Below the pieces are notes generated by a model. That model was not told the DNA's origin, did not search any database, and saw only the letters and a list, made by a program, of their open reading frames with translations. A stretch of 64,000 nucleotides of DNA from Crossaster papposus. Taxonomy: Eukaryota > Echinodermata > Asteroidea > Velatida > Solasteridae. Location: NCBI GenBank assembly GCA_037893245.1, contig JBAIAA010000025.1:1178001-1242000 (forward strand), written 5' to 3'. Below are positions 16,620 to 57,904 of the stretch, one piece after another; the first letter of the stretch is position 1; every line of letters begins with the position of its first letter. A program made the translations under genes and the position numbers.

Positions 16620-18350
16620 TTGCCATATCGAATTTAATTTCGCTCCAGTTCAAGCAATTCATCTTAAGCCTATTCAATACTCTGCCGCAGAGGCACAACT
16701 TATTGATGTAGAAATTGAAAAATTACAAGAAAAAGGAGCAATTATCGGGGTCACCTCTTGTCAGGGACAATTTTTGTCCAATTGCTCTTTCTTCGGTCAA
16801 AGAAGGATGGCTCAATGAGACCAATTATTAATCTGAAAGCTTTGAACAAATTCGTCACTTACCACCATTTTAAAATGGAGACTTTTGAATTTGCAGTGGC
16901 ATTAATTCGGCCATATTGCTATTTTGCATCTATAGATTTGAAGGATGCATATTTCACGATACCCATTGCTCAAGAACATCAGAAGTTTTTACGATTTCAG
17001 TGGCGAGATAAACTGTTCCAATTTACGTGTTTATGTTTTGGCCTTGCTAGTGCACCTCGTATCTTTACAAAGGTCATGAAACCACTCGTATCAACTCTAC
17101 GTAATGCTGGTCATATTTCAGCAAATTACATGGATGACTCGTTACTTATTGGTGACACATTAGAAGAATGTACCAGAAACATTGCAGCTCGTTGTGCACT
17201 GACAAATAAATTGGGGTTTGTTATTAATCAATCTAAATCGCACTTTACCCCAGTCCAAGAATTGAATTTGTTGGGATTCACCATTAATTCAATACAAATG
17301 ACGGTACGTTTACCGCCCCTCAAAGTATCAGCCACGGTTGAGGCATGCCTTGATCTCGCAAAACAATCAAACCCGCTAATTCATCGGGTGTCACAGGTTA
17401 TAGGGAAACTTGTATCGTGTTTTTCTGCAGTTCCACTCGGACCTTTACATTACCGAAGTTTATAAATGAACAAAGACGTTGCTTTGAAAAAGCATCATGG
17501 AAATTACCAGGCCAAAATGCCTCTCTCTCTGGACGCCAAGTCTGATTTGCAATGGTGGATACAGAATTTACTATGCACTTTTCGACCCATACAACCCCGT
17601 GTAACTGACATTGAAGTATTTACTGATGCTTCCCTTAGGGGTTGGGGAGCCTCTTGTCCGAAGGCTAATATTCAAACTAATGGCCGTTGGAATTGGCATG
17701 AAGCAAAGTTTCATATTAACTTTTTAGAACTCCTTGCGGTATTTTATGCTCTAAGGTCATTTAAAACTGACATTCAAAACAGAACTGTGTCCATCGCAAT
17801 GGACAATACCACAGGAGTCTCGTACATAAATCACATGGGAGGCTGTCATTCTGCTGAACTAAATGATTTAGCCAGACAAATTTGGTTTTGGTGCATCCAA
17901 AATGACATTTGGTTGATTGCACGCCATGTACCAGGTGTACAAAATACTTGTGCGGAAGTTTTGTCACGATCATTTAAGGACCATCTGGAATGGAAACTAG
18001 AGGCCAATATTTTTAAGGAAATTACATTAACGTTGGGTGTCGAACCAAGTATTGATTTATTTGCGTCTAGAAACAATTATCAATTATCAATTATTAAGCC
18101 TTTTGTGTCATGGCTACCTGACCCAGATGCAGTTGCATGTGATGCTTTTACAATGTCTTGGACAAAGGAAGTTTTTTTATGCATTTCCCCCTTTTGCTGT
18201 AATTGACAGGGTATTGCAGAAAATCGAGAGAGACGGAGCCATGGGTATACTTATATTCCCATTGTGGCAAACCCAACACTGGTTCCCTAGAATGCTGCGT
18301 CTGTTGGTAGCTACCCCGGTAACACTTCCAAAGATATCCGGGCTCTGTTG
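16620..18350 (+). pseudogene. DIRS reverse transcriptase and RNase H region
   Basis: RT motifs typical of DIRS: RPIINLKALNKFVTYHHFKM, SIDLKDAYFTIPI, FGLASAPRIFTKV, YMDDSLLIG. An RNase H region follows (EVFTDASLRGWGA, LELLAVFYAL, ARHVPGVQNTCAEVLSRS), then the DIRS-specific PSIDLFASRNN segment. Together they would copy the element's RNA into DNA. The region has a few breaks and is treated as a fossil. Confidence 0.9.
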
Positions 18351-18389
18351 AGTCTACCATGCACACGCCCCACAATATCACCATCCACT

Positions 18390-19400
18390 AGAGGACCGAA
18401 TGACAATGTGTGCTTCACTCTTATCCAGCGATCGCTCAGCTCAAGAGGCCTTTCGAACAAAGCTGTTGACATTATCCTCCAGTCATGGAGACCGAGCACC
18501 AAGAAGCAATACGCATCATCAATCGAGAAATGGGTACGTTTCTGCACTGAACGGGCTGTCGATCCAGTTCAGGCGTCTGTAAACTCGGCACTGAAATTTC
18601 TTACCAATTTATTTCAATCTGGGGCAGGATACAGCACTTTAAACACAGCACGATGTGCGTTGTCATCACTGCTTTGGTCAACGGCCGACATTAAAACCAA
18701 GTTTGGTAGTTATCCTTTGGTCATTCGTTTTATGCGAGGAGTATATAATTTAAGACCTCAATATCCTCGATATTCCCATACATGGGACGTTGGTATTTTA
18801 CTTCGTTATGTTAGCAAGATGGAGCCATTACAGTCTATTACGTTGAAACAGTTGACTTACAAACTGGTTTGCTTGTGTGCACTTACCACTGGACAGCGGG
18901 CTCAGACATTAAGCCTATTTGACATATCTAACATGAAGGTTAGAAACAAACGGGTTTTCATTAAAATAACTGATTTGGTTAAAACATCTAAACCGGGCAA
19001 ACCTCAACCACAGGTTGTACTGTCAGCATACCCACATGATAAAAGTGTATGTGTTATGCGAACCCTTTTAGAATATTTCAAAAGAACAAGAAGTTTTAGA
19101 GGTTCTAAGTCGAAATTATTTTTAAGCCATACAGTGCCGCATAAAGAGATAGGCACTGCCACAGTTTCCCGGTGGTTAAAACAATCCTTGACTGAAGCGG
19201 GTGTAGACGTGTCAAAGTTCAAAGCACATAGCTTCAGAGCTGCCTCAACTTCGGCAGCAGCTAAAAAAGGTGTACCGATTAACTAAATTTTGCAGACGGC
19301 GGGTTGGACAAACTCGACAACTTTCGCCAAGTTTTATAACAGAAGTGACAGCATTTTAAGCCCGGGGGCACAAGATCAGTTCTCCCAAGCTGTCTTAAAT
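18390..19400 (+). pseudogene. DIRS tyrosine recombinase region
   Basis: The N-terminal core-binding part contains SWRPSTKKQYASSIEKWVRF. The catalytic part shows the family's arginine (ALTTGQRAQTLSLF) and the H-x-x-R box (FKAHSFRAAST), with the tyrosine region nearby at about 19,340 (FAKFYNR). In DIRS elements this enzyme integrates a circular DNA copy without making a target duplication, in keeping with the absence of a clear one here. Confidence 0.88.
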
Positions 19401-25528: not shown

Positions 25529-26292
25529 AGCCCCAGTCCCACCGAAAGCCGGATACGCTACGGATCACCCCGGATGCACTACGGTTCATATCCGGGGTCA
25601 TCCGGGAGTGGAACCGTAGTCAAACCGTGATGAACCGTAGCCAATCCGGGACCATCCGGGGCCATCCGGGGCCATCCGGGACCATCCGGGGACAACCGTA
25701 GTACTTCCGGGAAGTCGAGCGTCACCCCGGATCAACATCTAGCATCCGGGATAATCCGGGGCCATCCGGGAAGGGAGAGGGGGGCGGCGGAGAACCATAG
25801 TGAAACTGTAGTGCGACCGTGATGATCCGTAGTGTATCCGGGATAAACTGTAGCGTAACCGTAGCGCAACCGTAGTGTAACCGTGTTTATCCGGGATGAA
25901 ACGGGAGTTGATTCACACACGGTTCCACTACGGTTCCACTACGGATGACCCCGGATACACTACGGATCACCACAGATTCACTACGGTTTCACCACGGATG
26001 TGCCACGGTTCACCGGGGTGAACCGTGGCACATCCGGAATGAACCGTGGCGCACCCGTAGTGAAACCGTGGCGGAACCGTAGTGAATCCGTGAACATCCG
26101 GGATAATCCGGGCCCATCCGTGGCAGAACCGTAGTCAAACCGTAATAGAACCGTAATAGGACCGGGGAACATGTCACTTTTTTTCGATTGCCTTCCCGGA
26201 CCACCCCGGGTGACCCCGGATCAAACGTCTGTTTCATTCGGGGCCATCCGGGGCGATCCGTAGCATATCCGGCTTCAGTGGGACTGGGGTTA
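25529..26292. mobile_element. Foldback element built of CCGTAGT/CATCCGGG words
   Basis: Ends AAGCCCCAGTCCCACCGAAA (left) and CTTCAGTGGGACTGGGGTT (right) are inverted, with subterminal CCGGATACGCTACGGATC mirrored at the other side. ATA stands on both sides, possibly a 3-bp duplication. The body is a degenerate mix of ACCGTAGT, CATCCGGG and complements, with the orientation reversing along the element. No coding sequence. Confidence 0.8.
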
Positions 26293-26309: not shown

Positions 26310-26580
26310 CTAATTTAATAAAACATGTAAGCGCAACAATAATTTGCTTAGCAAGAATAGTATACCCAGCACTATAGGAGACCGAGGACCCCCCTCTTAC
26401 CTATCACTCTAGACTATTTGTACCTATAACGCATGAAAAGTACATGAGGTTTTGGCTAGTAACCTGATTTTACTGAGCAAGGCTGGTTTGTGCTAAGCAA
26501 ATTGTTTGTGCTAATAAATTGTTTGTGCTAAGCAAATTGTTGTGCTCAGCAGAGCTCTCCATAAAATTAGCCCTTGGTTC
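26310..26580. mobile_element. MITE of the GGGGCTAATTT family
   Basis: Left GGGGCTAATTTAATAAAACA and right AGCTCTCCATAAAATTAGCC form imperfect inverted ends. Inside, TAATTTGCTTAGCA (left) mirrors TGCTAAGCAAATT (right, twice). The same terminal family (CTCTATGAAATTNGNCCC) appears as relics near 23280, 49630 and 60250. Confidence 0.65.
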
Positions 26581-26592
26581 AGTTCCCATGTA

Positions 26593-26940
26593 GTGGGGCT
26601 TAGCTCCAAAAAAAAGGTCGATTGTGCACTTTCCCTTAAAAGCATGAAACTTGGCACATAGTTAGAGTAACACAATACAAGGATTTTTAGTCCAGGGGCC
26701 ACCAGAAATTGCACCCCGTATGGCGGCCATCTTGGATTTCAAAATGGCCGCCATTGTGGATCTGTTTTGTTGAATATCTCCTTAACTGGTAGAGATATCG
26801 AGACAGTTGAAACGCCTATACCCACATTTTAGGGGTCTAGGAATCCATTGGTGACATAAAAGTTTAAAAATTGTGGCCGCCATCTTGAATTCCAAGATGG
26901 CCACCATCCACAAGCTATTTTGCTCAATATCTCATGATTT
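26593..26940 (+). repeat. Left inverted arm with ATGGCGGCC motifs
   Basis: Mirror of 30541-30893, near-identical by eye. The arm has paired, oppositely oriented YY1-like words: TGGCGGCCATCTTGG then AAATGGCCGCCAT, and TGGCCGCCATCTTG then CAAGATGGCCACC. These could form small hairpins or bind YY1-type factors. Confidence 0.85.
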
Positions 26941-26942
26941 TA

Positions 26943-27432
26943 GAATTTTAGAAATGAGATGGCACTATCCCATTCAGTGACACTCCCTTTCTCTTGACTT
27001 GTTTTGGCTTAAAATGGATTTTAAGCAGGACTTAGTCTTTGCCGGTTATGTCCAAATAAAAATGTATATTGGGTGGACATAAGAGATTGAGTGACTTTAG
27101 TTGGTTGGATAATCAGATGTGATTAGAGGTGCGAGCAGAGGATTATGTTTACAAATCCTCTTGATAGCAATAGCATGCTTTCGTGCCTTGCTGTAGCACT
27201 CGTCAGTTGCAAATGGGTGACTAAAAAAGAATCGAAGCCGACTCGCAGAGAGGTTGTGGTTGGGATTGGGTATATTCCAATCATGTAAGTTTAGATTGAG
27301 CCATATGTTTGTTAGTCGGTTTCAGATTGTTTCTCTAGTAAGGAGAGCAATATGTTGAGGGTTTCGTCTGGTTCAGTAGGTTGTTCGAAAAAGCCAGAGT
27401 CTGCTGGGAGTGGTTTGAGCTTTTGCTTTTGA
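26943..27432 (-). repeat. Tandem 3' copy of the Penelope-like element (A/T-rich version)
   Basis: Aligned by eye, this matches 27433-27920 at an offset of 487 bp. In the first 95 aligned bases (26963 and 27450 onward) I count 24 T-versus-C differences (T here), two other substitutions, and no A-versus-G difference on the plus strand. In sense orientation this copy has A where its neighbour has G. Confidence 0.85.
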
Positions 27433-30400
27433 TTTTAGAAATAAGATGGCACCATCCCACCCAGCGACACTCCCCCTCTCCCGACCCGTTCCGGCCCAAA
27501 ATGGACCCCAAGCATGACCCAGTCTTCGCCGGCTACGTCCAAACCAAAATGCACATTGGGCGGACACAAGAGACTGAGCGACTCCAGCCGGTTGGACAAC
27601 CAGATGTGACTAGAAGTGCGATCAGAGGACCACGTTTACAAACACCCCCGACAGCAACAGCATGCTTTCGAGCCCCGCTGCAGCACTCGTCAGCTGCAAA
27701 TGGGTGACCCAAAAAGAATCGAAGCTGACTCGCAGAGAGGTTGCGGCTGGGACCGGGCACACTCCAATCATGCAAGCTTGGACCGAGCCACACGTCCGCC
27801 AGCCGGCTTCAGACCGCCCCCCCCCCCCCCCGAGCAAGGAGAGCAACATGTTGAAGGCCTCGTCCGGCTCAGCAGGCTGCTCGAAAAAGCCAGAGTCTGC
27901 CGGGAGCGGCTCGAGCCCCCGCCCCCGCTGTGGCAGCTCAGCTCCCACCAACCTCTCCCGAATGCTCTGGGCCCCCTCGAAGGCAACAAAAGGAGGCCTC
28001 GGAAAAAGCTCTGAGAGCACCCGACTGCCCTCGATCAAGCTCCAGTGTCTGCCCACCGCTCGACACATGTCACCACGATCCATGGCTGGGCTGCAGGTGG
28101 CTGCGAAGACAAGCGGAGCCCGTCCTGCTCCCTCTCCATCCCCTGCGCCGTGCACCAGTCTCGATCGGTCGGCACGTGAGACCCCGGCTGCTGCCGCTCC
28201 GACTTCACCGGAAGTACAGCCTCCCGTGGTTAGCCTCTCCAAGAACACCTTGACTCCGCTGCGGAAACCATCCGCGCTGCCGGCGCCCCCAGCGCAGCGG
28301 AGCGCCTCCCCGTACATGAACGCCTTGAAAATACGGAGTGGGCGGGATGATGCCCCACGGAGATACTGGAAGGCCTCCGCCGGCCCCGTGCAGACCCCGG
28401 CGTCCAGGACTCCTGCCCCATGGAAACGGTCTCCTTCAAATATGGTCAAGTCAAGGTAGCCGATTGATGATTTAGAGGCCCTGCATGCAAATCTTAGGGT
28501 TGGGCGCATCCCGCACACCTCCGCGACGAGACTCCGGATCTCGTTCAGAGCTCCGTTGCAGATGACCAACATGTCGCCTCCACAGCGCCACCATGCAAGG
28601 ATGCCACCCGCCCCCTGGACCACTTTGCCCTCAAAGCCGTGCAGGGCGACGTCACAAATTTCAGGGCCTGATGCGGAGCCTACCGCACAACCAACCCTCC
28701 GGAGAAAGAACCCACTCCCGAAACGGAAGCAGCCGCGACCGAGGATGAGTTCCAGAAGCCCCCGGATGCAAATTGAAGGTGGTTCCGCGACTGGGCGGCA
28801 ACGGCCTGCGCCCTCGAGGGCACCGCAAACACATTGGACCGCCCCGCCCGTCGGACACCGGTGCACATAGAAACAACATCCATACTCGCGACCAGGACAT
28901 CCCGCGAAAAATGTCCCTCCTCCAGCCCGCGCAAAACGTCCGCCGTATCGCGGACACATGTGGGCCGCGCGGCCACTATGGGAAGAAGGAAGCAGTCTAT
29001 GCACTCTTAAACCCCCGCCGGAGAGCCAGTACAACCACCCACAATTGGACGTCCAACAAAAGGCTCCCCCGGTGGCGGTGCCCTGCGCACCTTGGGGAGA
29101 AAACACATGGCCGGACACTGACAGCTCCGCAGAAGTTGGCCGAGGCACCTCAGAGCATCGCTGCCGATGCGCCTGCCGCCTCTCACCTCCACGAGTGTGC
29201 CGCGAACCATCGCAACAGTTTGCGGGGCAACACCCCGGTCTAGCTGGGCACAGCGATGGGACTCAAGGCGGCGGCAACCCACCCGTAGATAATCCGAGCG
29301 GCCCACAATGCAAATGCCCCCGCCCCCGCCACACGGCTCGACCACGATGTCAGGACCGTTCCCGAGTCCACCCATGGCGGACAAATCCCGCGCGGTCACG
29401 TCCGCCCGCCGACTCCCCAGCCCGACACGGGCCAGCTCGAACCCAGCGGCCTCCAAGCACTCTTCCAGCGTTGCACCAGGGGACGACTCACGTCGCCAGC
29501 CCGATGGCGGCCCGAAAGGATGGCCCCTGGAGCGCCCATCACGCACCAAGAATGCAACTCCCAGCCTTCGACTGAAGGCACTCACGCCACCTACAAGCGC
29601 CAAGCGGCCCGGCCCAGCAGGAGCAGGCACGAAACCTAAACCCCTTCCCAAAGCAACTGCTTCGGTCCGCGACAGTGCCGCCCCGGATAGGCCTGCCACG
29701 AAGGACCGGCACCGCTCCGCCAGCGAGCGCAAATACTGGAGCCGGCTCGCCCGGCTCTCGATCTGCACCCGCCCGAGAAACGGCCAGACCTCGACCGACC
29801 AAGCGATCCCTCAGCTTTCCCGTCGAGTTCTCCTCCCGCCACGGCAGCCAAGAGACCAATGGCCCGGATACAACAGACAATGCAGGATGGGCCACATTCC
29901 AGTTCATTTATTACAGCCACCATACAATAATAAGGGCAAGATGACGGACCCACCTCCCCCGAGAAGGCGTGGCAGCCCCGAAAAGGACTGCTCGGCCCCG
30001 CAGTGGTCAGAGATCGGCTCAGGGCTGTCGCCCCCTCCTGACGCCCCCGTTGGGCCGACAGGGTCCCGTGAAGAAGCTCAAGAGCCTCCGAGCGGCAGAA
30101 TGGTCCCGACCCTGGAAACCCCCAGCAAGCCGGCGAGCCGGTCCCCGGCGACTGGCAGCCGGTGCGTGCACCCCTCCAGCGAGATTCCCGCGAACAGCAA
30201 CGATGCTCCCCTCCGTAGACCGCTCCAACGATCCCGGAACGAACACTGAAACCTCAGAGATCGGCGCAGATGCGGCGGCCGCACGTCCACCTTGATACAG
30301 GGTGGCGGCGTGCCAGCCTCAACCGACCGGGAAAGGAGCTGCACCTGGCGGGCGATGCGCTCCCCGGCAGCCGTCAAAGCGCTGACGCCTTCCGCCAGGA

Positions 30401-30479
30401 ACCTCACCCGTTTGAACCCCTCCTCGGACAGTCCGCGCGAGAAAGCGGCCGGCCCGGTTGCCGATGCAGATGGGCACAA
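27433..30479 (-). pseudogene. Penelope-like reverse transcriptase, G-rich copy
   Basis: Reading right to left, N-terminal similarity includes ALSRTEAVALGRGLGFVPAP, then DIVVEP followed by a glycine run where the family has a lysine/aspartate-rich motif, then LPKVRR and GRPIVGG (RT fingers). Further on come FFLRRVGCAVGSASGPEICD, ILAWWR (the active-site region, where the usual Y-x-D-D is no longer readable), YLDLTIFEGDRF, FQYLR, FKAFMYGEALR, and GRHWSLIE with LFPRPPFVAFEGAQSIRERL, all in the order of Penelope-like elements. Residues with A-rich codons are strikingly scarce: by my count four lysines and five asparagines in 508 codons (27622-29148). Typical family residues are replaced in the direction given by A-to-G change. 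Long open frames here may partly reflect loss of TAA/TAG/TGA by the same process. Confidence 0.75.
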
Positions 30480-30540
30480 GTCCAGCTCGCAGGAGAGGAG
30501 AAGACCCCTAAAACGTGGGTATAGGTGTTAAAAATGTATT

Positions 30541-30893
30541 GATATCTTTACTGCTTCATGAGATATTGAGCAAAATAGCTCGTGGATGGTGGCCATCTTG
30601 GAATTCAAGATGGCGGCCAAAATTTTCAAACTTTTATGTCACCAATGGATTCCTAGACCCCTAAAATGTGGGTATAGGCGTTTCAACTGTCTCGATATAT
30701 CTACCAGTTAAGGAGATATTCAACAAAACAGATCCACAATGGCGGCCATTTTGAAATCCAAGATGGCCGCCATACGGGGTGCAATTTCCGGTGGCCCCTG
30801 GACTAAAAATCTTTGTATTGTGTTACTCTAACCATGTGCCAAGTTTCATGCTTTTAAGGGAAAGTGCACAATTGATCAGCTAAGCCGCCCCAC
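30541..30893 (-). repeat. Right inverted arm with ATGGCGGCC motifs
   Basis: Reverse complement of 26593-26940 with only a few mismatches. An extra AAACGTGGGTATAGG segment near 30512 repeats part of the arm (AAATGTGGGTATAGG near 30663), so the inner boundary on this side is slightly rearranged. Confidence 0.85.
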
Positions 30894-31701
30894 TAATGTT
30901 ACTTTGGTTGACAACTAAATGAATTCCAATGCTTGACAGGCATATATTTGTTTTTAATAATGCGCAGAAAATTGGCTGAACATTTAGCGAACTCGATTGT
31001 TGATAAATTAGAAGAAACACAGGATTGCGGGTATACATTCGATTTTGCGCTAACATTAATTATCGGTACACTAGATTCAGTGCACAATTGGGAAATCGTA
31101 AGCTGATTTGTGTAGACTGATTACAAATAATTATCAATTGTCGAATAGAAAACGGGATTGTGAACATTTATACTATTTCGCACGAAAACGAATGCATCTC
31201 TTACAAATTAATGTGCACAATTTCCGATAATGTTCGGGAAAACCTATTACGTCGGTCAAAGGCAAAAGCCAATTTTGAGTTTACTTAAAAGTTAAAGAAA
31301 CAGGTTTTTTTTTGTAGTTTGGATTTCTGATTGCAGTAAATGCGCCAATTTAGTTATAAAAACACAAATTTACTGTAACAATTTGCTAATGATTCAATGT
31401 TTCCTTTATTAATTAATGTCCTAGCTAAGTTTAAAGTTTACAAGAATACATATAAAACTTTTTTTTTTTTAAACCTAAATATACAGACATGTTCATACAG
31501 TACGTTTTTATAAGAAATTTATAAGAAATCTAGTTGTGTACTAGAAGATAAAACACTTACTGGTAATTAGTAAATAATGTCTTTGCATCAAATGTAATTT
31601 CGAAATTAACATTGTAAATAAAAAAAATAATTACCACAAATAAACCACAAGGAAAACCGACTAGGTAAATTTGCATAAATTTCAAAGTGAACAAAGATTT
31701 T
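30894..31701. other. AT-rich interval
   Basis: No gene is supported. Poly-T tracts are present (31306-31314 and 31460-31470). No paired ends were found. Confidence 0.4.
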
Positions 31702-31762
31702 TGCAAGGCGGGACTCGAATCTGCGACACCGGACCGGCGCTCCACCAACTGAGACATCTTGA
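31702..31762 (-). repeat. tRNA-derived SINE, minus-strand copy
   Basis: On the minus strand: ATGTCTCAGTTGGTGGAGCG (box A) and GCAGATTCGAGTCCCGCC (box B), then TTGCAAAAATCTTTGTTCAC. It is head-to-head with the copy at 31836 and shares the same CTTTGTTCACTT tail. Confidence 0.65.
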
Positions 31763-31835
31763 TCTGTGCTGTTTATGTCTTCTGGCTAGCGCCCTCCAAC
31801 AAAGATGCTCACAATTTGGGGGACCGCCAACAAAG

Positions 31836-31907
31836 GGCAAGATATCTCAGTTGGTGGAGCGCCGGTCCGGTATTCCGGAGGTTGCAGGTTCGAGTCTTGC
31901 CTTGCCA
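31836..31907 (+). repeat. tRNA-derived SINE or tRNA-like gene
   Basis: The 72-nt segment reads GGCAAGATATCTCAGTTGGT...GGTTCGAGTCTTGCCTTGCCA. A 7-bp acceptor-like pairing (GGCAAGA with TTTGCC-like TTGCC ends), D-arm, T-arm and an anticodon-like stem CCGG/CCGG are visible, but the loop lacks the invariant T33. The tail CTTTGTTCACTTCATAAG and its inverted twin point to a SINE rather than a working tRNA. Confidence 0.6.
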
Positions 31908-32244
31908 ATTTCTTTGTTCACTTCATAAGAAAAAAAAAATACACAAATCCCTGCTTTTCCCCCTGAAGAGTTTTACACCATTGGCTGCAATAACTGTTTA
32001 CACCCTACACATGTACCCGTTTTTGAAGCAACTATAGAACGTTTAAAGGAAATGTGTGACAAAAATGCTCCCTGGTCCTTTTCTTAAAACCCACCTTTAT
32101 GTCTGGACGTAAAGGTGAGTGTTTAATTGAGTGTTTAATTACATATTTTATCGCTGGGATTTCACCAACCGCCATCAGCATAACATACACGATTGTCAGC
32201 TGTTTGCACGTGTTTGTAATGTGTAAAAAAATAGAGTTTTCTAA

Positions 32245-39224: not shown

Positions 39225-40736
39225 ATGGCTACTTCTAGAAAACGGTCTCAAGAAGAGTACTTATACCCCGCCACCCCTAGAACAGTCCGATACTCAGGAA
39301 CCCCATCAACAACCCATTCCACAACCTCACCTCGCCATCCCACAACAGCTTCAGAAACCCACGATGAACTGCCGATCCACGGACAACACCACACAGAGAC
39401 AGAAGAGCAACTAATCGCAGACCTGCAGACTTTGGAGAGACGAATTGATCAAAGCTTTCCCCGGCCTCAAGCACCCAACCGACGACAGTCGAGAGCTACG
39501 TACAGTGACACAACCCGATATGAGCCTGGTACCCGTGCCGAAAGCTCCAGGCCGCCGGACTACACAGGATATACACCTCAACGGAGAAATCAACAATCTC
39601 GTTCTCCTTCAACCCCTCTGCAGCTGATGCCATCTCATCAGATTAAAAGTGTACCCATATATACCGGCCGAGAAGGTTCAACGGTGTGTATTGAGGACTG
39701 GGTGAGGGACATGACTTACCTAATTGAAAACACAGCCATGCCATCAGAGATGAAATTTTCGACCATTGTCAGGAACCTCGGAGGAGCAGCCAGGAAACTC
39801 GTGCTTAATCTGTCTCCTGACGAACAAACTCCAAGCAGCGCCTTTGCTGAGCTAAAGGCACAGTTCGGAGACATAGCCATGAGAGGGGACCCACTCGCCA
39901 ATTTCTACGAGCGTTTGAGACAACCAAATGAGTCACCTGGTATTTACGCTGTAGAACTTGAAGCAACACTTCGGACAGTGGAGGAGCAGATGAACAACTG
40001 CCACCCCCTTCCCAGCAGAAACGGAATGCTCACACAGCAATTTATGCGTGGCGTCAAAGATGAAAAGATAACCAACCGCCTGGCCCCAATGAAACCTAGG
40101 GAGATGTTATTTCGTCAGCTGCAAATGGAAGTTAGACAGATTGAACGAGAACGCAGGACTGAAACCCTATCACACCCAAAAACAGAAGCGAAGGCCCAGT
40201 CGCAGCCACAGTATGTTCCACCACAACCTACATCCCACACTCAATCACAGCTGAAACAGCATAAAGTGACATCCGCTCTTAAACAGCAGGCGGCGTCCAC
40301 TAGCGATCTACCAACAAATCAAGGGCAGAGTCCCACTGATGAAATTCTTCAGAGTCTGATCTTGAAAGTTCAAGAATTGGCCCAGACTGTGGAGCACATC
40401 ACGACACCAGCACCAAACCCGTACCAACAATTACAGCAGCAGCGACAGTACCGACCGCAGCAGCAACAGTACCGACCGCAGCAGCAACAGTACCGACCGC
40501 AGCAGCAGCAGCAGCAGTACCGACCGCAGCAGAGTCCCACTGAGCAGTATCCCAAACAGCAACAGCAACAGTATCAGCAACAATCTCCTTCAGATGCGAG
40601 CCAGCAAAAAGTTTTCATCTGTTTCCGATGTGGCCAAGAGGGTCATATAGCTCGAGGTTGCAGAAACATTCCGTTAAACTTCCAGGGCCCCCGGAACCAG
40701 GGCAAACCGTCGGTGGCCCCAAATCACGCCCAATAG
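39225..40736 (+). CDS. Gypsy gag region
   Basis: The ATG at 39225 in a good context (ATCATGG) gives MATSRKRSQEEYL. The capsid-like middle includes YTGREGSTVCIEDWVRDMTY and LKAQFGDIA, followed by a glutamine-rich tract with a 21-bp repeat (QQQYRPQ units, 40435-40545). A CCHC zinc knuckle (CFRCGQEGHIARGC) is near the end. Gag forms the particle and packages RNA. The following pol frame overlaps its end, consistent with the frameshift or read-through strategies used by Gypsy elements. Confidence 0.9.
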   Translation: MATSRKRSQEEYLYPATPRTVRYSGTPSTTHSTTSPRHPTTASETHDELPIHGQHHTETEEQLIADLQTLERRIDQSFPRPQAPNRRQSRATYSDTTRYEPGTRAESSRPPDYTGYTPQRRNQQSRSPSTPLQLMPSHQIKSVPIYTGREGSTVCIEDWVRDMTYLIENTAMPSEMKFSTIVRNLGGAARKLVLNLSPDEQTPSSAFAELKAQFGDIAMRGDPLANFYERLRQPNESPGIYAVELEATLRTVEEQMNNCHPLPSRNGMLTQQFMRGVKDEKITNRLAPMKPREMLFRQLQMEVRQIERERRTETLSHPKTEAKAQSQPQYVPPQPTSHTQSQLKQHKVTSALKQQAASTSDLPTNQGQSPTDEILQSLILKVQELAQTVEHITTPAPNPYQQLQQQRQYRPQQQQYRPQQQQYRPQQQQQQYRPQQSPTEQYPKQQQQQYQQQSPSDASQQKVFICFRCGQEGHIARGCRNIPLNFQGPRNQGKPSVAPNHAQ

Positions 40737-43700
40737 GCCGAACTCCGCCCAAATCTACAACAGGCCAACAATGTTCAACGATTCATTGTGATAATGTGAG
40801 GCTAGACCACCAGCAGTTGATCGGCCCACACAATGAAGACATTGTAGAGGTTAATGGACAGAGTTATCGAGCATTGATCGACTCTGGATCCCAGGTAACC
40901 TCTGTTACTGAAGATATGTGGAGGAAACATCCCAAGCTCAAAGATATCAAATTGTCCTCGGGTGATGTTTACATAGAAGGTGCCGGCGGCCAAAAAGTTT
41001 CGTACTTGGGGATTCTTCGCATTTCTCTCACGGTCCTAGGCATCACGTACAATGATGTACCAGTTTTTGTTGTTCGTACCGATAGCTACCGTCAGCAAGT
41101 ACCAGTTTTAATAGGAACGAATGTCATCCGGGCTTCGAGACGAGATCAGCAGATTGAAAGAGGGAACTACTTTATGCAACACCTAAAAGAGGAAAACACA
41201 GCATGGTACACTGCATACGTCAATACATCCATCACTGATTTTGGGGACCAACACGGCAGAATGGGTTATGCAAAGTACGTGGGACGCTACCCTAGAAAGA
41301 TACAACCAGGCACAGAAGTCGATATTATCTGCGAAGCGCCGCCCAACCCAACAGGTCGTCCTTACACTGCCGTAATCGAAGGTCTACCAAATAGTGCATC
41401 CTGCTTAAGAATTGGACATCTGCTTGCCGACGTAGGACCGAACCGCCGAGTACCAGTAAGGATATGCAACATTTCAGCCAGACCTGTTGTAATCTCTAAA
41501 AACTGTCAGCTAGCCCAAGTATACTCGGTTCTACGGGTAGATGAGACAAAACAAACCACCAAGATGGCGGAAACACTGTCTACTTCACTTCATCCTAATG
41601 ATGGCTGCCCGCGTGCTCATGTGAGGAACATCGGAACAACTAAGCAACTAGCCGACATCATATCGTCTCTCGACCTGCCTGAATCTGCACTTGAAGATGA
41701 GGTGCAGAGGGAGCAACTTCATAATCTCCTTCTAGAGTTCACAGATATCTTTTCTGTCGACTCTCTCGACTTCGGACGAACCGTTACTGTGAAGCATTCG
41801 ATACCTCTCATGGATGACCATCCGTTCCGGCTTCCTTATCGGAGAATACCTCCTCGCCAGTACCAAGCGGTCAAAGAACAACTCCAGAAGATGGAACAGG
41901 CTGAGGTTATTCGCCGTAGCAACAGCCCTTACGCCTCACCATTGGTTATCGTCCACAAAAAAGACGGTACCTTACGAATCTGTATAGATTACCGCCAACT
42001 CAATAGCAGGACCATCCGCGATGCGTACCCTCTTCCGCGGATTGAGGAAGCTTTAGATGCCCTGGGTAATGCCAAATTCTTCTCCACCCTCGACCTAACA
42101 TCGGGCTATTGGCAAGTTGAGGTAGAGGAGCAAGACAAGGCCAAAACTGCATTTACTTCCCCTATGGGTCTCTACGAGTGCAATCGAATGCCTTTCGGCC
42201 TTCAAAACGCACCGGCAACGTTCCAGCGATTAATGCAGACCTGTCTAGAGGACCAGAACTATTCTTCTGTACTACTTTACCTTGACGACGTCATCGTTTT
42301 TTCATCAACATTTAAACAACACCTGCAGCGATTAGAGAAGGTATTTGCCTGCCTCCGTCGGCATGGATTGAAGCTAAAGCCTTCCAAGTGCCATCTCATC
42401 CGAAAAGAAGTGACATACCTTGGCCACATTGTGTCGGCAGCAGGCATATCTACAGATCCTGATAAAGTTGCTAAAGTTAGGGACTGGGAAACGCCTCGCA
42501 ACCACAAAGAATTACTTCGGTTCCTAGGTTTTACGGGGTATTATCGACGATATATCAAGGGATACTCAACAATGCACCAATCCTTGCATTTGCTGACTAC
42601 ACTCAACCATTCATTCTACAAACTGACGCGTCAGGAACCGGACTTGGAGCGGTGCTAAGTCAAATTCAAGATGGTCAAGAACGAGTCGTAGCCTACGCCA
42701 GCAGGGGACTAAGTCCATCAGAGACCCGTTATCCAGCGCACAAGCTCGAGTTTCTCGCATTAAAGTGGGCTGTTACCGACAAACTGCGGGATTACCTTTT
42801 AGGCAACACATTTACCGTTTGGACAGATAACAACCCACTCCTCTACATCCAGAGCACAGCAAAGCTTGACGCCACCGGACAACGATGGGCTGCTGCCCTT
42901 TCACAATTTAATTTCACCATCAAATACAAGCCTGGGAGAAACAATTCTGCAGCAGATGCCTTGTCTAGGCAACCACAGCCGAAATTGTCAGACCCTTCAC
43001 CCACCTTGGATCAGGGAGCACTGGCAATTCCCCCCGATGTTGTTCAGGCGATCTGTGGTGGTCACCCTTCCAATTCATATCCTTTCATAGAAGCCCAAAC
43101 GGGACAATGTAACGTCACAACCAGACAGCAAGCAAGGCTCCCTACTTCTGTGAAGCTCAAGGTCGGTAAAAATGATCTTCCGGGTTTGTCCAAACATCAA
43201 CTGGCTCTGACTCAACGCGATGACCCCAGTATCTCCCTAGTCATCCAGCTTCTCGAGAAAGGCCAGAGACCTGACGACCAAATCAGAAGAGATAGCTCTC
43301 CAGAATGTCTCATATACTTCAGACAGTGGGAAAAGCTGGAGTTAAGAGACCATGTCCTCTACCGTCTCCGCAAGACAACGGATGGTACATCTACACACCA
43401 GTTGGTCCTGCCTACGTTCTATCGAGATACTGCCATGACGGGTCTACACGATGACATCGGACACCTTGGCTACGACCGAACTTTAGACATGGTCCGACGG
43501 AGATTCTTTTGGCCTAGAATGGCTCAAGATGTTGCAAGGTGGTGTAAGACTTGCCAACGATGCTGTCTAAGAAAAACTGCAACAGGAAGGGTCCGTGCTC
43601 CGTTGGTCTCAATTCAAACAAACGAGCCACTGCAACTCGTGTGCATCGACTACTTGAAGCTTGAACGGAGTAAAGGTGGTCATGAAAATATCTTGGTCAT

Positions 43701-45201
43701 AACAGACCACTTCACCAAGTATGCCCAAGCGTTTCCTACTCTAGATCAGAAGGCAGAAACGGTAGCACGGGTACTATGGGAAAGCTTCATCCTTCATTAT
43801 GGATTTCCAGCCCGCATACACTCAGATCAAGGTCGTAACTTTGAAAGTCGAGTCATCCAAGAACTTTGTAAAGTTTGTGGAATTCAGAAAAGTAGGACGA
43901 CGCCCTATCATCCTCAGGGTAACGGGCAAACCGAAAGGTTTAACCATACCTTGTTGAACATGTTGGGAACACTCGACGACAGTCAAAAGAAAAATTGGAA
44001 GCAATACGTAGGAGCGATGTGCCACGCTTACAACGCTACCTGCCACGACACCACAGGTTTTCCTCCGTTCTTTTTGATGTTTGGGCGTCACCCCAACCTC
44101 CCGGTCGATCTCATGTTTGGAATCAACAACACAAATGACGACACACCTCCCGAGTATAACGACTATGTACAGAACCTCAAACAACACTTAACATCGTCCT
44201 ACAAGACAGCCAGCAAGCTAGCAAGTCAGGCAAAAGCAAAACAAAAGCGCAACTACGACCACAAGACCCATGATGCCCCCCTGCAACCTGGTGACCGTGT
44301 CTTGGTGCAAGAAAAGCATATCATAGGAACGCACAAGTTGGCGAACAGATGGGAAATGCATCCCTACATCATTGTTTCGAAACATGAAGGTATCCCCGTG
44401 TACACTGTCCGTTCCTCTACTTCTAGTAGAGAAAGAACAGTACATAGGAACCTCCTCACACCTTGCATGTTCCTCCCAGTAGTGATAGGAGACGGAGAAC
44501 CAGCTTCACCTGAAGTCAAAATAAAGACAACCCCTGAGAAAATCCAAGCAGACAAAAAGATCATCTATGAAGACAGCAGTTCAAGTGACAACATGGACGA
44601 AGATGCTGGAATTGTCTTTTATCCTGTTCACATAAGACAAGAACTTCCTCCTTCAGAACCTCCGCCAAAACTTGTATCTCCATCATCGGAGCCACCATCT
44701 CCATCATCGGAGCCTCCATCTCCGTCATCAGAGCCACCATCTCCACCATCGGAGCCTCCATCTCCACCATCGGAGCCTCCATCTCCACCATCGGAGCCTC
44801 CATCTCCACCATCGGAGCCTCCATCTCCACCATCAGAGCCTCCATCTCCATCATTAGAACCTCTATCTCCACCCGAACCTCCGCTAGAGAGTTTATTTCC
44901 ACCAGAGCTTCATTCTCGGCTTTCCTCGACGCCTCAACCCCCTTTTGAACCACAGTCGAAAATACTCCCCGAGCCTATTCTTGAACCTCTAGGAGCAATA
45001 TCTAGACCAAAGAGAACCAGAAGACCAATTGATCGACTAACATACGACTTCTTAGGGCAGACTAAACAACACCTCGTTAATTATGACAAATCTCACTTAT
45101 GTAAACTTGAAAGAGGTAAAGCTCTCTTAGTGAAATGGAAGAGCCCAGAAATGGCTTTAACTAGAAAGAAAGCCATGTTGAGATTAATGTCAGAAGATTA
45201 A
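40737..45201 (+). pseudogene. Gypsy pol region
   Basis: Domain order: aspartic protease (ALIDSGSQVTSV, near 40860), reverse transcriptase (RICIDYRQLNSRTIRDAYPL; FFSTLDLTSGYWQVEVEE; MPFGLQNAPATFQRLM; YLDDVIVFS), RNase H (YASRGLSPSETRY, VWTDNNPLLYI), integrase with an HHCC zinc finger (GHLGYDRTLDMVRRRFFWPR, CKTCQRC) and DDE core (SDQGRNFESRV, PYHPQGNGQTERFN), then a proline-rich C-terminal tail. RNase H before integrase places it in Gypsy/Ty3 rather than Copia. It is broken about once and treated as a fossil. Confidence 0.93.
44684..44872 (+). repeat. 18-bp minisatellite coding for SEPPSP repeats
   Basis: About ten copies of an 18-bp unit (CCATCTCCACCATCGGAG) encode PSPPSE hexapeptides in the integrase tail. 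Later units are the most uniform, indicating recent expansion. The long minus-strand open frame across it is a by-product of the repeat. Confidence 0.93.
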
Positions 45202-55646: not shown

Positions 55647-56994
55647 AACAATTAAAACACGCGTGACTCGGGCTTGAAAACTGCAGCGCTGTGTGTGCAC
55701 GCGCATGATAAACTGCGCAGATAGATTGAACTGCTGTTGCGTAGAAACGTTTATGACGAAAATGTTTTGCGCATAAGCAACAGCGATTGCTTCGAACAAA
55801 AGTTAAGTTGAACACTTAGTTGAACACTTAGATAAGCGGGGTGATTAGATCTTTCGTAACCTTTGAGTTTTGTGAAAACAAACTTGCCTTTTTCCTATGC
55901 CAAGTTAACTTGTGTAATGTACATAATTACACCATTGTTTAAAAATAAATTTCATTTTAGAAACCAATGCACATAAATGGGCCTGGCAGCAAGGAGCAAA
56001 ATCAGTCCATTGAAAACGTATACATGTACAGTACCTGTACAGGGGTAAAAACATTCTGGTAAATTTCTCTAAATCTTCCCAGAGTTTATTGCTTTTCTAA
56101 ATAATTTCTTTCTGTTCTCACTGGGGTTTTAGGGCACAAAATCAAATCGTATAAAATTGCTTCCGTCTCATGGGCATATTTTAGAACAAACTCAACAGGG
56201 CTCCTTTCCGCACATGTAAACAAAAATAACTTATTGGGGATCACCCAGCTAACTACGGTCTGAATAGCAAGAGCTGAATTGCAGGCTGAAAACCAACACG
56301 GTCGGCATACACAAGGTGAATCAGCTCGCATTTATCCTGCAATTCAGCCTGGCGAAATTGACCTAAAATGTTTATACTCCTGTACATTTTTAATGGACCA
56401 ATATATTTTCTTGCCGCCAGGCTCTTTCATGCGCATCCACCATCCACGCATACATTTAAATGGATTTTAATTAGAGTTAGAAAGGTTAGGAGGAGCACAC
56501 AACACACTTGCACAATTAGACCTTTGCCAGGGTACGTACAATGTACCCCATCTTTAAAATCAAAGCGCAGCAAATAATACTAACAAACATGGAGGCCTAA
56601 TTCCCCCTAAATGGTACACATGTACAATGTATGTGTGGTGAACGAATGGCTCTTGCAAAGTAACAGCAGACTCACAATCCTAAAAATGGAAGAATGGCTT
56701 AAATTCCAAATGTCAATCACTAAAACTTCTTTTCGGCCGCTGGTTTTAGGCTTTATTTTGTATGATCCTTTTTCGAAATGCAATGAAACATGACCTACAA
56801 TGAAGAATACAGATTGGCGTTTCAAGAGAATTTGAGCCATCCTTCTATTTTAAGATTGTTTATCTGCTATAACCTTTGGAGAGTCACCTGTTAAACAGCA
56901 CAGACCATTTAGGCAGCCATGTTTGTTTGTGTTATTTTCCTCGCTTTGATTTTAAAGATAGCGTACCCTTTTCACTTTTACCCTTATCACTCAC
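55647..56994. other. 5' part of neuferricin intron 1
   Basis: No other gene is supported. A small inverted pair GCTGAATTGCAGG (56273) and CCTGCAATTCAGC (56336) suggests a short MITE. The intron ends at the donor at 56994. Confidence 0.45.
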
Positions 56995-57484
56995 CAACCG
57001 GTTTGTATTCCTTCTCGTAAAAGTTCACCCAAGTTTCCACTTCTATCATCTGCTGTGGACTGAGTCCTTCTACATCATCTACCAATCCGTTCTCGTTAAA
57101 CTCCCCGGTGACAAAAGCTCTCGTTGCATCACATCCAGCAAAGAACTCATACCCACCTCCTGGCCCGTAGTGCCTGGCGCCTTTCCCCACGTCAAAGACT
57201 TGGCCCAAAACAGCAAGGTAAAGACCCTTGCTCCCCTCTTTGCCATTGTACTGTGCCAATTCTTTTTTGGTCAGCAGTCTTTGGGGCTGTTCCATTTGCA
57301 GTGACAGGGCTGCTTTGGTCTGTTCTTCGGAACTTTTCTGCTGGCCTGGTTCCTCTGAATACCCAATCAAATTATTCAGGTTGATGGTGATAGCTGCGCT
57401 AATGTCCTCCCATTTGTAGAACTCCAGGTGCCAAGCTATCACTGCAGTTATGACCACAAGTGCAAGGGTAACCCGACCAAGCAT
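56995..57484 (-). CDS. CYB5D2: Neuferricin, exon 1 (signal anchor and cytochrome b5-like domain)
   Basis: ATG at 57484-57482. Residues 1-20 are hydrophobic (LALVVITAVIAW), a signal peptide or anchor. Residues about 70-160 are the heme/steroid-binding cytochrome b5-like domain of the MAPR family: LAQYNGKEGSKGLYLAVLG, QVFDVGKGARHYGPGGGYEF, then FAGCDATRAFVTGEFNENGL. The YGPGGxYxxFAGxDAxRA signature is clear; MAPR proteins use tyrosine rather than two histidines for heme. The donor GTTG|GTGAGT at 56995 gives phase 1. The three exons total 846 nt, 281 residues plus stop; human neuferricin is 264. Vertebrate neuferricin is an extracellular heme-binding protein linked to neuronal differentiation (established knowledge). 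Confidence 0.93.
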
Positions 57485-57904
57485 GTCAGACTATGTGTTT
57501 ATACTTCACCGTTATCCAAAATGTTAAATACACCAGGTACATGTAGAGTAGTGCTGTGCTCAAAGCCTCATTGATGCCACTTTAATGCCTGCTGTTTAAT
57601 GAGAAGAAACAACGAATGCTGTTATTAAAAAAATATGAATCTGTTTTGATGAGTACAAGTACCTTTGACTTGTATTAGATAAATTTCAACCGAAATATGA
57701 CATTCAATGTCAGAATCAGTCATTAGTAATTAGTAATTGTCCATGTCACACACGTAGCTGAAATATGGATAAAGTTTGTACTACAAACTTTAGTGGCCAC
57801 CCACGGTGCCGGTTTCCGTGGCCACTATAACTTGCAAGTGGCCAGTATAGCAAGGCTGTATACATGTTGTATACACGTACGCGTACATTAAGTGTAGTAC
57901 CCCT
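57485..57904. other. Upstream region of neuferricin
   Basis: This would hold the 5' UTR and promoter; no TATA box or CpG cluster is convincing. GTGGCCACTATAACTTGCAAG-like words here recur near 61155-61200, so part is repeat-derived. Confidence 0.4.

Follow-up and report, generated by a model that had tools for sequence, protein, structure and literature searches.

A Penelope-like retroelement with one-strand A-to-G changes, probably of ADAR origin, carried as cargo of a DNA transposon in Crossaster papposus

The window analysed here, a stretch of 64,000 nucleotides of Crossaster papposus (GCA_037893245.1, contig JBAIAA010000025.1), was found to contain a unit of 4305 bp at 26591..30895 with the ends TAGTGGGGC...GCCCCACTA, a non-autonomous DNA transposon. 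The unit was flanked by ATG target-site duplications at 26588..26590 on the left and at 30896..30898 on the right. The left inverted arm (26618..26937, plus strand) contained about two 153-nt units, and the right inverted arm (30556..30875, minus strand) was followed inward by a further partial unit up to 30502; both arms were unedited. Between the arms, on the minus strand, copy a (26943..27432) was found to be an unedited, 5′-truncated 3′ end of a Penelope-like element, followed by the presence of a hyperedited Penelope-like element (27433..30501) whose own 3′ end is copy b (27433..27920). The edited reverse transcriptase was also on the minus strand, its earlier part in frame -2 (28854..29810) and its later part in frame -1 (27934..28797), with the catalytic motif WWRCGGD at 28573..28593.

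Several other elements were found in the window. At 16719-19283 a phage-integrase-type recombinase was found behind a reverse transcriptase, the arrangement of DIRS elements, and the element at 40547-45198, with protease, reverse transcriptase, RNase H and integrase domains, is of the gypsy type. The region 25549-26250 contained a dense array of 10-, 11- and 21-nt units based on CCGG, CCGT and ACGG in both orientations. An inverted tRNA-like pair with a short loop between its members was found at 31685-31923, with an Rfam tRNA match at 31836-31907. Among the ten long ORFs scanned for domains, three of which gave no match, the sole likely host gene piece named was an ORF with a cytochrome b5-like domain at 56990-57490.

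The motif WWRCGGD corresponds to WWRYRDD in the unedited relative L057 and to WWRYIDD in L051 and L052. It was kept in 19 of the 20 fetched copies of the unit, and the remaining copy contained WCRCGGD. The stop near 29007 of the window copy was common to three of these 20 copies, 14 contained Ser at this place and three contained a one-base gap. The open frame of L057 was 681 amino acids long, contained WWRYRDD as its motif C and matched Pfam RVT_1 at 40.1 bits; a Pfam scan of five edited ORFs gave no RVT_1 match even at E 10. A Penelope-like element (PLE) consensus compared with the body by tblastn gave E 6e-42. The sequence is consistent with a PLE-type reverse transcriptase, an assignment based on this consensus and on RVT_1, for which Pfam itself gave no PLE label. 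A GIY-YIG domain was not matched in the 681-amino-acid ORF of L057 up to E 1. Since EN-deficient PLEs are described in the accessible text of PMC3846280, the missing GIY-YIG bears on the clade and not on PLE status. Rfam detected no hammerhead on the element at gathering scores or up to E 5, no relative of the element was found among plasmids, IMG/VR contigs and GTDB contigs, and comparison with solved structures gave nothing useful. The contigs C48, C297, C653 and C1227 (G000) contained matches to the edited protein at about 56%, spaced by about 4255 bases, most of them with open 681-amino-acid frames, a spacing that may be read as in head-to-tail arrays. The unedited state refers here to L057 (C297), the sole fetched member of these spaced matches.

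Copies a and b could be aligned end to end, the gaps being few once an expanded G run in b is set aside, and form a partial tandem of the Penelope-like kind. In the sense direction (minus strand) the full alignment from a to b contained 94 A>G, one G>A, three C>T and one T>C substitutions together with six transversions (A>T 1, C>A 2, G>T 1, T>G 2), and 66 A were unchanged. The binomial p for 94 A>G against one G>A was 5e-27. A preliminary description of this DNA had stated that the copies differ almost only as T versus C on the plus strand, that is, as A versus G in sense, and the complete table agrees with it, neither G>A nor C>T nor the transversions being comparable to A>G. Copy a contained the final 39 codons of the ORF and the stop; because both junctions have bases in common with the neighbours, its limits can be placed only to within a few bases. 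The frame in copy a and in L057 ended in QSETD followed by the stop, and the same TAA was found as TGG in b, which helps the long open frame to continue in the window. The 3′ terminus of b was TTTCTAAAATC, identical in L057, and the A nucleotides nearest to it were unedited (the last three A in the outgroup comparison, and 0/6 in the final 15 nt in the a/b pair). At 27817-27831 copy b contained a run of 15 C (G in sense) where copy a was found to contain AGAGAAACAA in sense, b being 9 longer; slippage of the run may have occurred on the edited template or at a later stage.

The sense A share of purines was 0.18-0.33 in the 100-nt bins of 27501-30500, with the exception of 28401-28500 (0.50). 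It was 0.44 in the bin across the a/b border and 0.45-0.78 beyond (26501-27400 and 30501-31000), and the skew had sharp edges, the A share jumping back at about 27433 and about 30501. For the pyrimidines there was no comparable break: T made up 0.32-0.56 of them in sense inside and 0.45-0.69 in the outside bins. The sense composition of the body was G 1129, C 827, T 693 and A 419. The reverse transcriptase region contained five Lys and two Asn in 427 aligned residues; a scarcity of A-rich codons had previously been remarked. At second codon positions, A made up 15% and G 34% in the two alignable edited stretches; the corresponding shares were 26-34% A and 11-20% G for five domain-supported stretches belonging to other elements of the window, and 30-31% A for three fetched reverse transcriptase relatives of the same genome. 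The editing level was fairly even along the element and was low in the first 100 nt (4/11) and in 28402-28501 (15/37).

The neighbour context of the a/b pair was tried as a test of polarity and was rejected, both models being fitted equally (log-likelihood gain 10.6 for A>G with a 5′ rule and 10.4 for G>A with a 3′ rule). The pair is thus ambiguous on direction, and outgroups were needed. Against the Penelope-type consensus, 65 residue changes of the body were explicable by A>G and nine by G>A among 292 mismatches; against three reverse transcriptase pieces of the same genome the numbers were 64, 62 and 44 versus 8, 8 and 10 (314, 311 and 276 mismatches, respectively). A genome search with the edited protein gave at least 143 matches, with the best 135 of 2354 candidates scored; these counts are lower bounds, and the places are not all independent insertions. 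At least 63 places (64 rows) matched the edited reverse transcriptase at 85-100% and were taken as the carrier unit, some possibly being two haplotypes of one place, and the transposon ends were checked in 21. Below this class were found at least four matches at 68% (the L059 kind, two of them fetched) and others at 44-58%. The pattern matches L054 and L055, considered as close relatives, proved otherwise on fetching.

The relatives L057, L058 and L060 were 93, 94 and 89% identical to the window, respectively, over 3 kb with A and G merged, and were found to contain an A share of 0.71-0.73. At the sites where the three agree, the window contained 611 A>G, 348 unchanged A, eight A>T and three A>C, together with five G>A, eight T>C and 20 C>T. 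The edited fraction on this reference was 611/970 A (63%), and 704/1128 A of L057 alone are now G in the window. The control comparison of L057 with L058 gave 18 A>G and 13 G>A. The divergence from the window element at non-A sites was about 7% for L057, 5% for L058 and 12% for L060, so these are close relatives and not the donor. Ten of the 12 relatives outside the 20 unit copies (L056-L067) were unedited, with an A share of 0.70-0.75 over the fetched stretch; in L056 and L061-L066 the changes amounted to 6 to 80 A>G and 5 to 53 G>A per aligned piece. The two edited relatives were L059 and L067, and L059 was edited at the sites of the window. L057 differed from copy a by seven A>G and eight G>A, and copy a is thus unedited. 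The outgroup table and the unedited copy a indicate that the A-rich state is ancestral and that A was replaced by G on the sense strand. The preliminary description had named a G-rich norm of the family as an outcome that would overturn it; with ten of 12 relatives unedited, the G-rich state is normal for the carrier transposon alone and not for the retroelement family.

The inverted arms were 98% complementary over 320 nt and purine-balanced, and differed at 8/320 sites in mixed directions (A/G 4, G/A 2, G/T 2); the preliminary description had likewise called them unaffected. The same ends with unrelated flanks were found at 20 further places (20 fetched stretches, L034 with two units), and 3-bp target duplications were present in 18 of the 21 copies including the window, the exceptions being L031, L040 and L046. 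The shared ends, the unrelated flanks and the 3-bp duplications show that the inverted arms are the ends of a non-autonomous TIR DNA transposon with the edited element as its cargo; inverted ends, a duplication of fixed length and dispersed copies were all present. No transposase was matched in five ORFs of the unit. Copy b directly adjoined copy a in 39 of the 40 places scored with copy a, and the 40th place, on C326 (L035), contained an insertion of about 200 nt between them. One stretch (L034, C130:205782-215360) was found to contain two internally deleted carrier units head to tail with the common end CACTAGTGGGG, and the transposon may thus take its own end, or a site beside it, as a target.

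The edited body was present in 20/20 fetched unit copies with an A share of 0.255-0.275. The window copy differed from the 20 others alike on both strands (A>G 234, T>C 195; G>A 123, C>T 147). L059 and L067 were internally deleted and edited, and contained the same arm at their 5′ side, the side covered by the fetched stretch. At the A sites of L057, G was found in both the window and L059 at 457 sites, A in both at 284, G in the window only at 52 and in L059 only at six; the 3′ part of L059 was unedited (3/97 A). The edits shared across the copies, and at the same sites in L059, indicate one editing event that was fixed and then amplified. The hyperedited copy of the preliminary description thus stands, but not as a local event, being one of dozens of descendants of a single one.

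The edited fraction depended on the 5′ neighbour, with 93/115 edited after T (81%), 259/336 after A (77%), 140/238 after C (59%) and 31/137 after G (23%). On the three-relative reference this effect had a chi-square of 142 (p 1e-30), and no effect of the 3′ neighbour was found (p 0.16). The full 5′ order of ADARs is T or A, then C, with G disfavoured. A preference for a 3′ G is weak, is found in some ADARs and is not common to all. The contrast of 23% after G with 59-81% after the other nucleotides bears out the early remark that A after sense G is mostly spared, as with ADAR, and the accessible text of PMC2873906 also reports that an upstream G is under-represented. At the protein-inferred sites the context was weak (T-preceded versus the rest, p 0.05) and the sparing after G was absent (p 0.41), the neighbours there being altered by editing. 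The genome contained at least 16 matches to the ADAR deaminase domain (PF02137), the best with 310 bits over the whole domain. The element thus contained A>G on one strand, the 5′ order and editing of at least half of the A in a host with ADAR domains, and a 3′ G preference was not detected (p 0.16). Five matches to positions 1-44 of the ADAR deaminase were found within 81 kb at C979:267053-348180 (G000), a pattern that would fit the multiplication of an ADAR exon or gene.

The findings are with high probability explained by the copying of an ADAR-edited Penelope-like RNA into DNA, followed by its spread with a DNA transposon. The sense RNA of a Penelope-like element would have been present in a long RNA duplex, and ADAR would have changed about 63% of its A to inosine. 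A reverse transcriptase supplied in trans would then have read inosine as G and made a DNA copy of 3 kb. This edited copy would have been joined head to tail to the unedited, 5′-truncated copy a, most simply by a template switch in one insertion, with the insertion lying between the two arms of a TIR DNA transposon that makes 3-bp target duplications. The transposon would have moved as DNA, leaving the dead edited cargo at dozens of places. The order of a and b and the terminus TTTCTAAAATC fit one insertion during which the template changed from unedited to edited RNA; two successive insertions may instead have placed a and b. That several hundred edits entered the germ line in one step, through a template-switching insertion, and were then multiplied by the transposon is judged somewhat probable. 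The 611 A>G against five G>A, the ADAR 5′ order and the ADAR domains favour the early proposal that an A-to-G edited sense RNA was reverse transcribed.

That dA was deaminated within an RNA:DNA hybrid, such as first-strand cDNA or an R-loop acted on by ADAR, is very unlikely; ADARs edit dA in model DNA:RNA hybrids according to the accessible text of PMC12925331, but the DNA strand is antisense in both kinds of hybrid, which would give T>C in sense, where eight T>C were found against 611 A>G. A mutagenic reverse transcriptase miscopying template A, as in diversity-generating retroelements, would likewise restrict the changes to A, to one strand and to the reverse-transcribed stretch. It appears slightly less credible still, as the 611 A>G stood against eight A>T and three A>C and followed the ADAR 5′ order, and copy a and ten relatives with the same kind of enzyme were unmutated. 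The preliminary description had suggested that the inverted arms perhaps formed the edited duplex, in which case the whole transposon transcript would have been edited. In spite of their complementarity this is highly improbable, because the best-paired arms were unedited, as was copy a between them, the edits ended at 30501 and 27433, and the arms are the transposon ends. With the arms unedited, some other pairing would have given rise to the duplex, the most likely partner being an antisense RNA from another copy.

APOBEC-like cytidine deamination (sense G-to-A) of copy a, with b native, had been one of the alternatives in the preliminary description and fits the a/b context as well as the ADAR model (10.4 against 10.6), but its probability is close to nil, since copy a resembled the unedited L057, the body differed from the three relatives by 611 A>G and five G>A, and the catalytic YRDD of L057 was CGGD in the body. 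Ordinary drift of a GC-rich subfamily or GC-biased gene conversion could be suggested by the composition skew in other elements of the window (gypsy near 40001-40500), but is just as negligible, as both strands should change, as they did between the window and the 20 copies, and T>C was found eight times against 611 A>G.

Under the preferred explanation, editing of RNA by ADAR before reverse transcription, the locus would record, in the germ line, the action of ADAR on the RNA of a retroelement. An unedited neighbour copy and outgroup relatives make the rate, the context and the strand directly readable (about 700 changes with L057 as reference). Edited RNA could then become heritable DNA and spread by way of an unrelated DNA transposon. 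The presence of the edits on the sense strand only argues that the template of this Penelope-like element was the sense RNA, which, if true, bears on the question of sense versus antisense templates for Penelope-like elements. It also argues that a duplex with antisense RNA probably existed; action in trans and antisense transcription are both discussed for Penelope elements in the accessible text of PMC3846280. Ordinary repeat searches may split edited fossils into unrelated families, and comparison in a purine-collapsed alphabet followed by a test of direction could reveal more of them.

A literature search, which covered few subscription papers, gave no report of a hyperedited Penelope-like element among the matches listed. 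A-to-G hypermutated avian retroviruses are Rous-associated virus 1 (Felder 1994) and avian leukosis virus (Hajjar and Linial 1995), as cited in the accessible text of PMC8586724 and PMC12925331. They are alike in being retroelements with clustered A-to-G changes, at nearly 50% of A in the affected region, ascribed there to ADAR; here, the element is Penelope-like and fixed in the genome, is edited over the whole 3 kb at 63% of A and was amplified by a transposon. APOBEC-edited retrotransposons, with G-to-A changes, were surveyed in genomes in PMC2873906, and the accessible text of that survey describes a similar strand-specific, clustered deamination written into the genome, but with the opposite change (sense G-to-A) and by another class of enzyme. 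The partial tandems of Penelope elements contain a full-length and a 5′-truncated copy head to tail, as here; no hyperediting is reported in the accessible text of PMC3846280 and PMC11167929, and the present lineage differs by giving no GIY-YIG match. The unit shares its ends, inverted arms, 3-bp duplications and dozens of copies with non-autonomous TIR transposons, and differs from them in that its cargo is a hyperedited retroelement.
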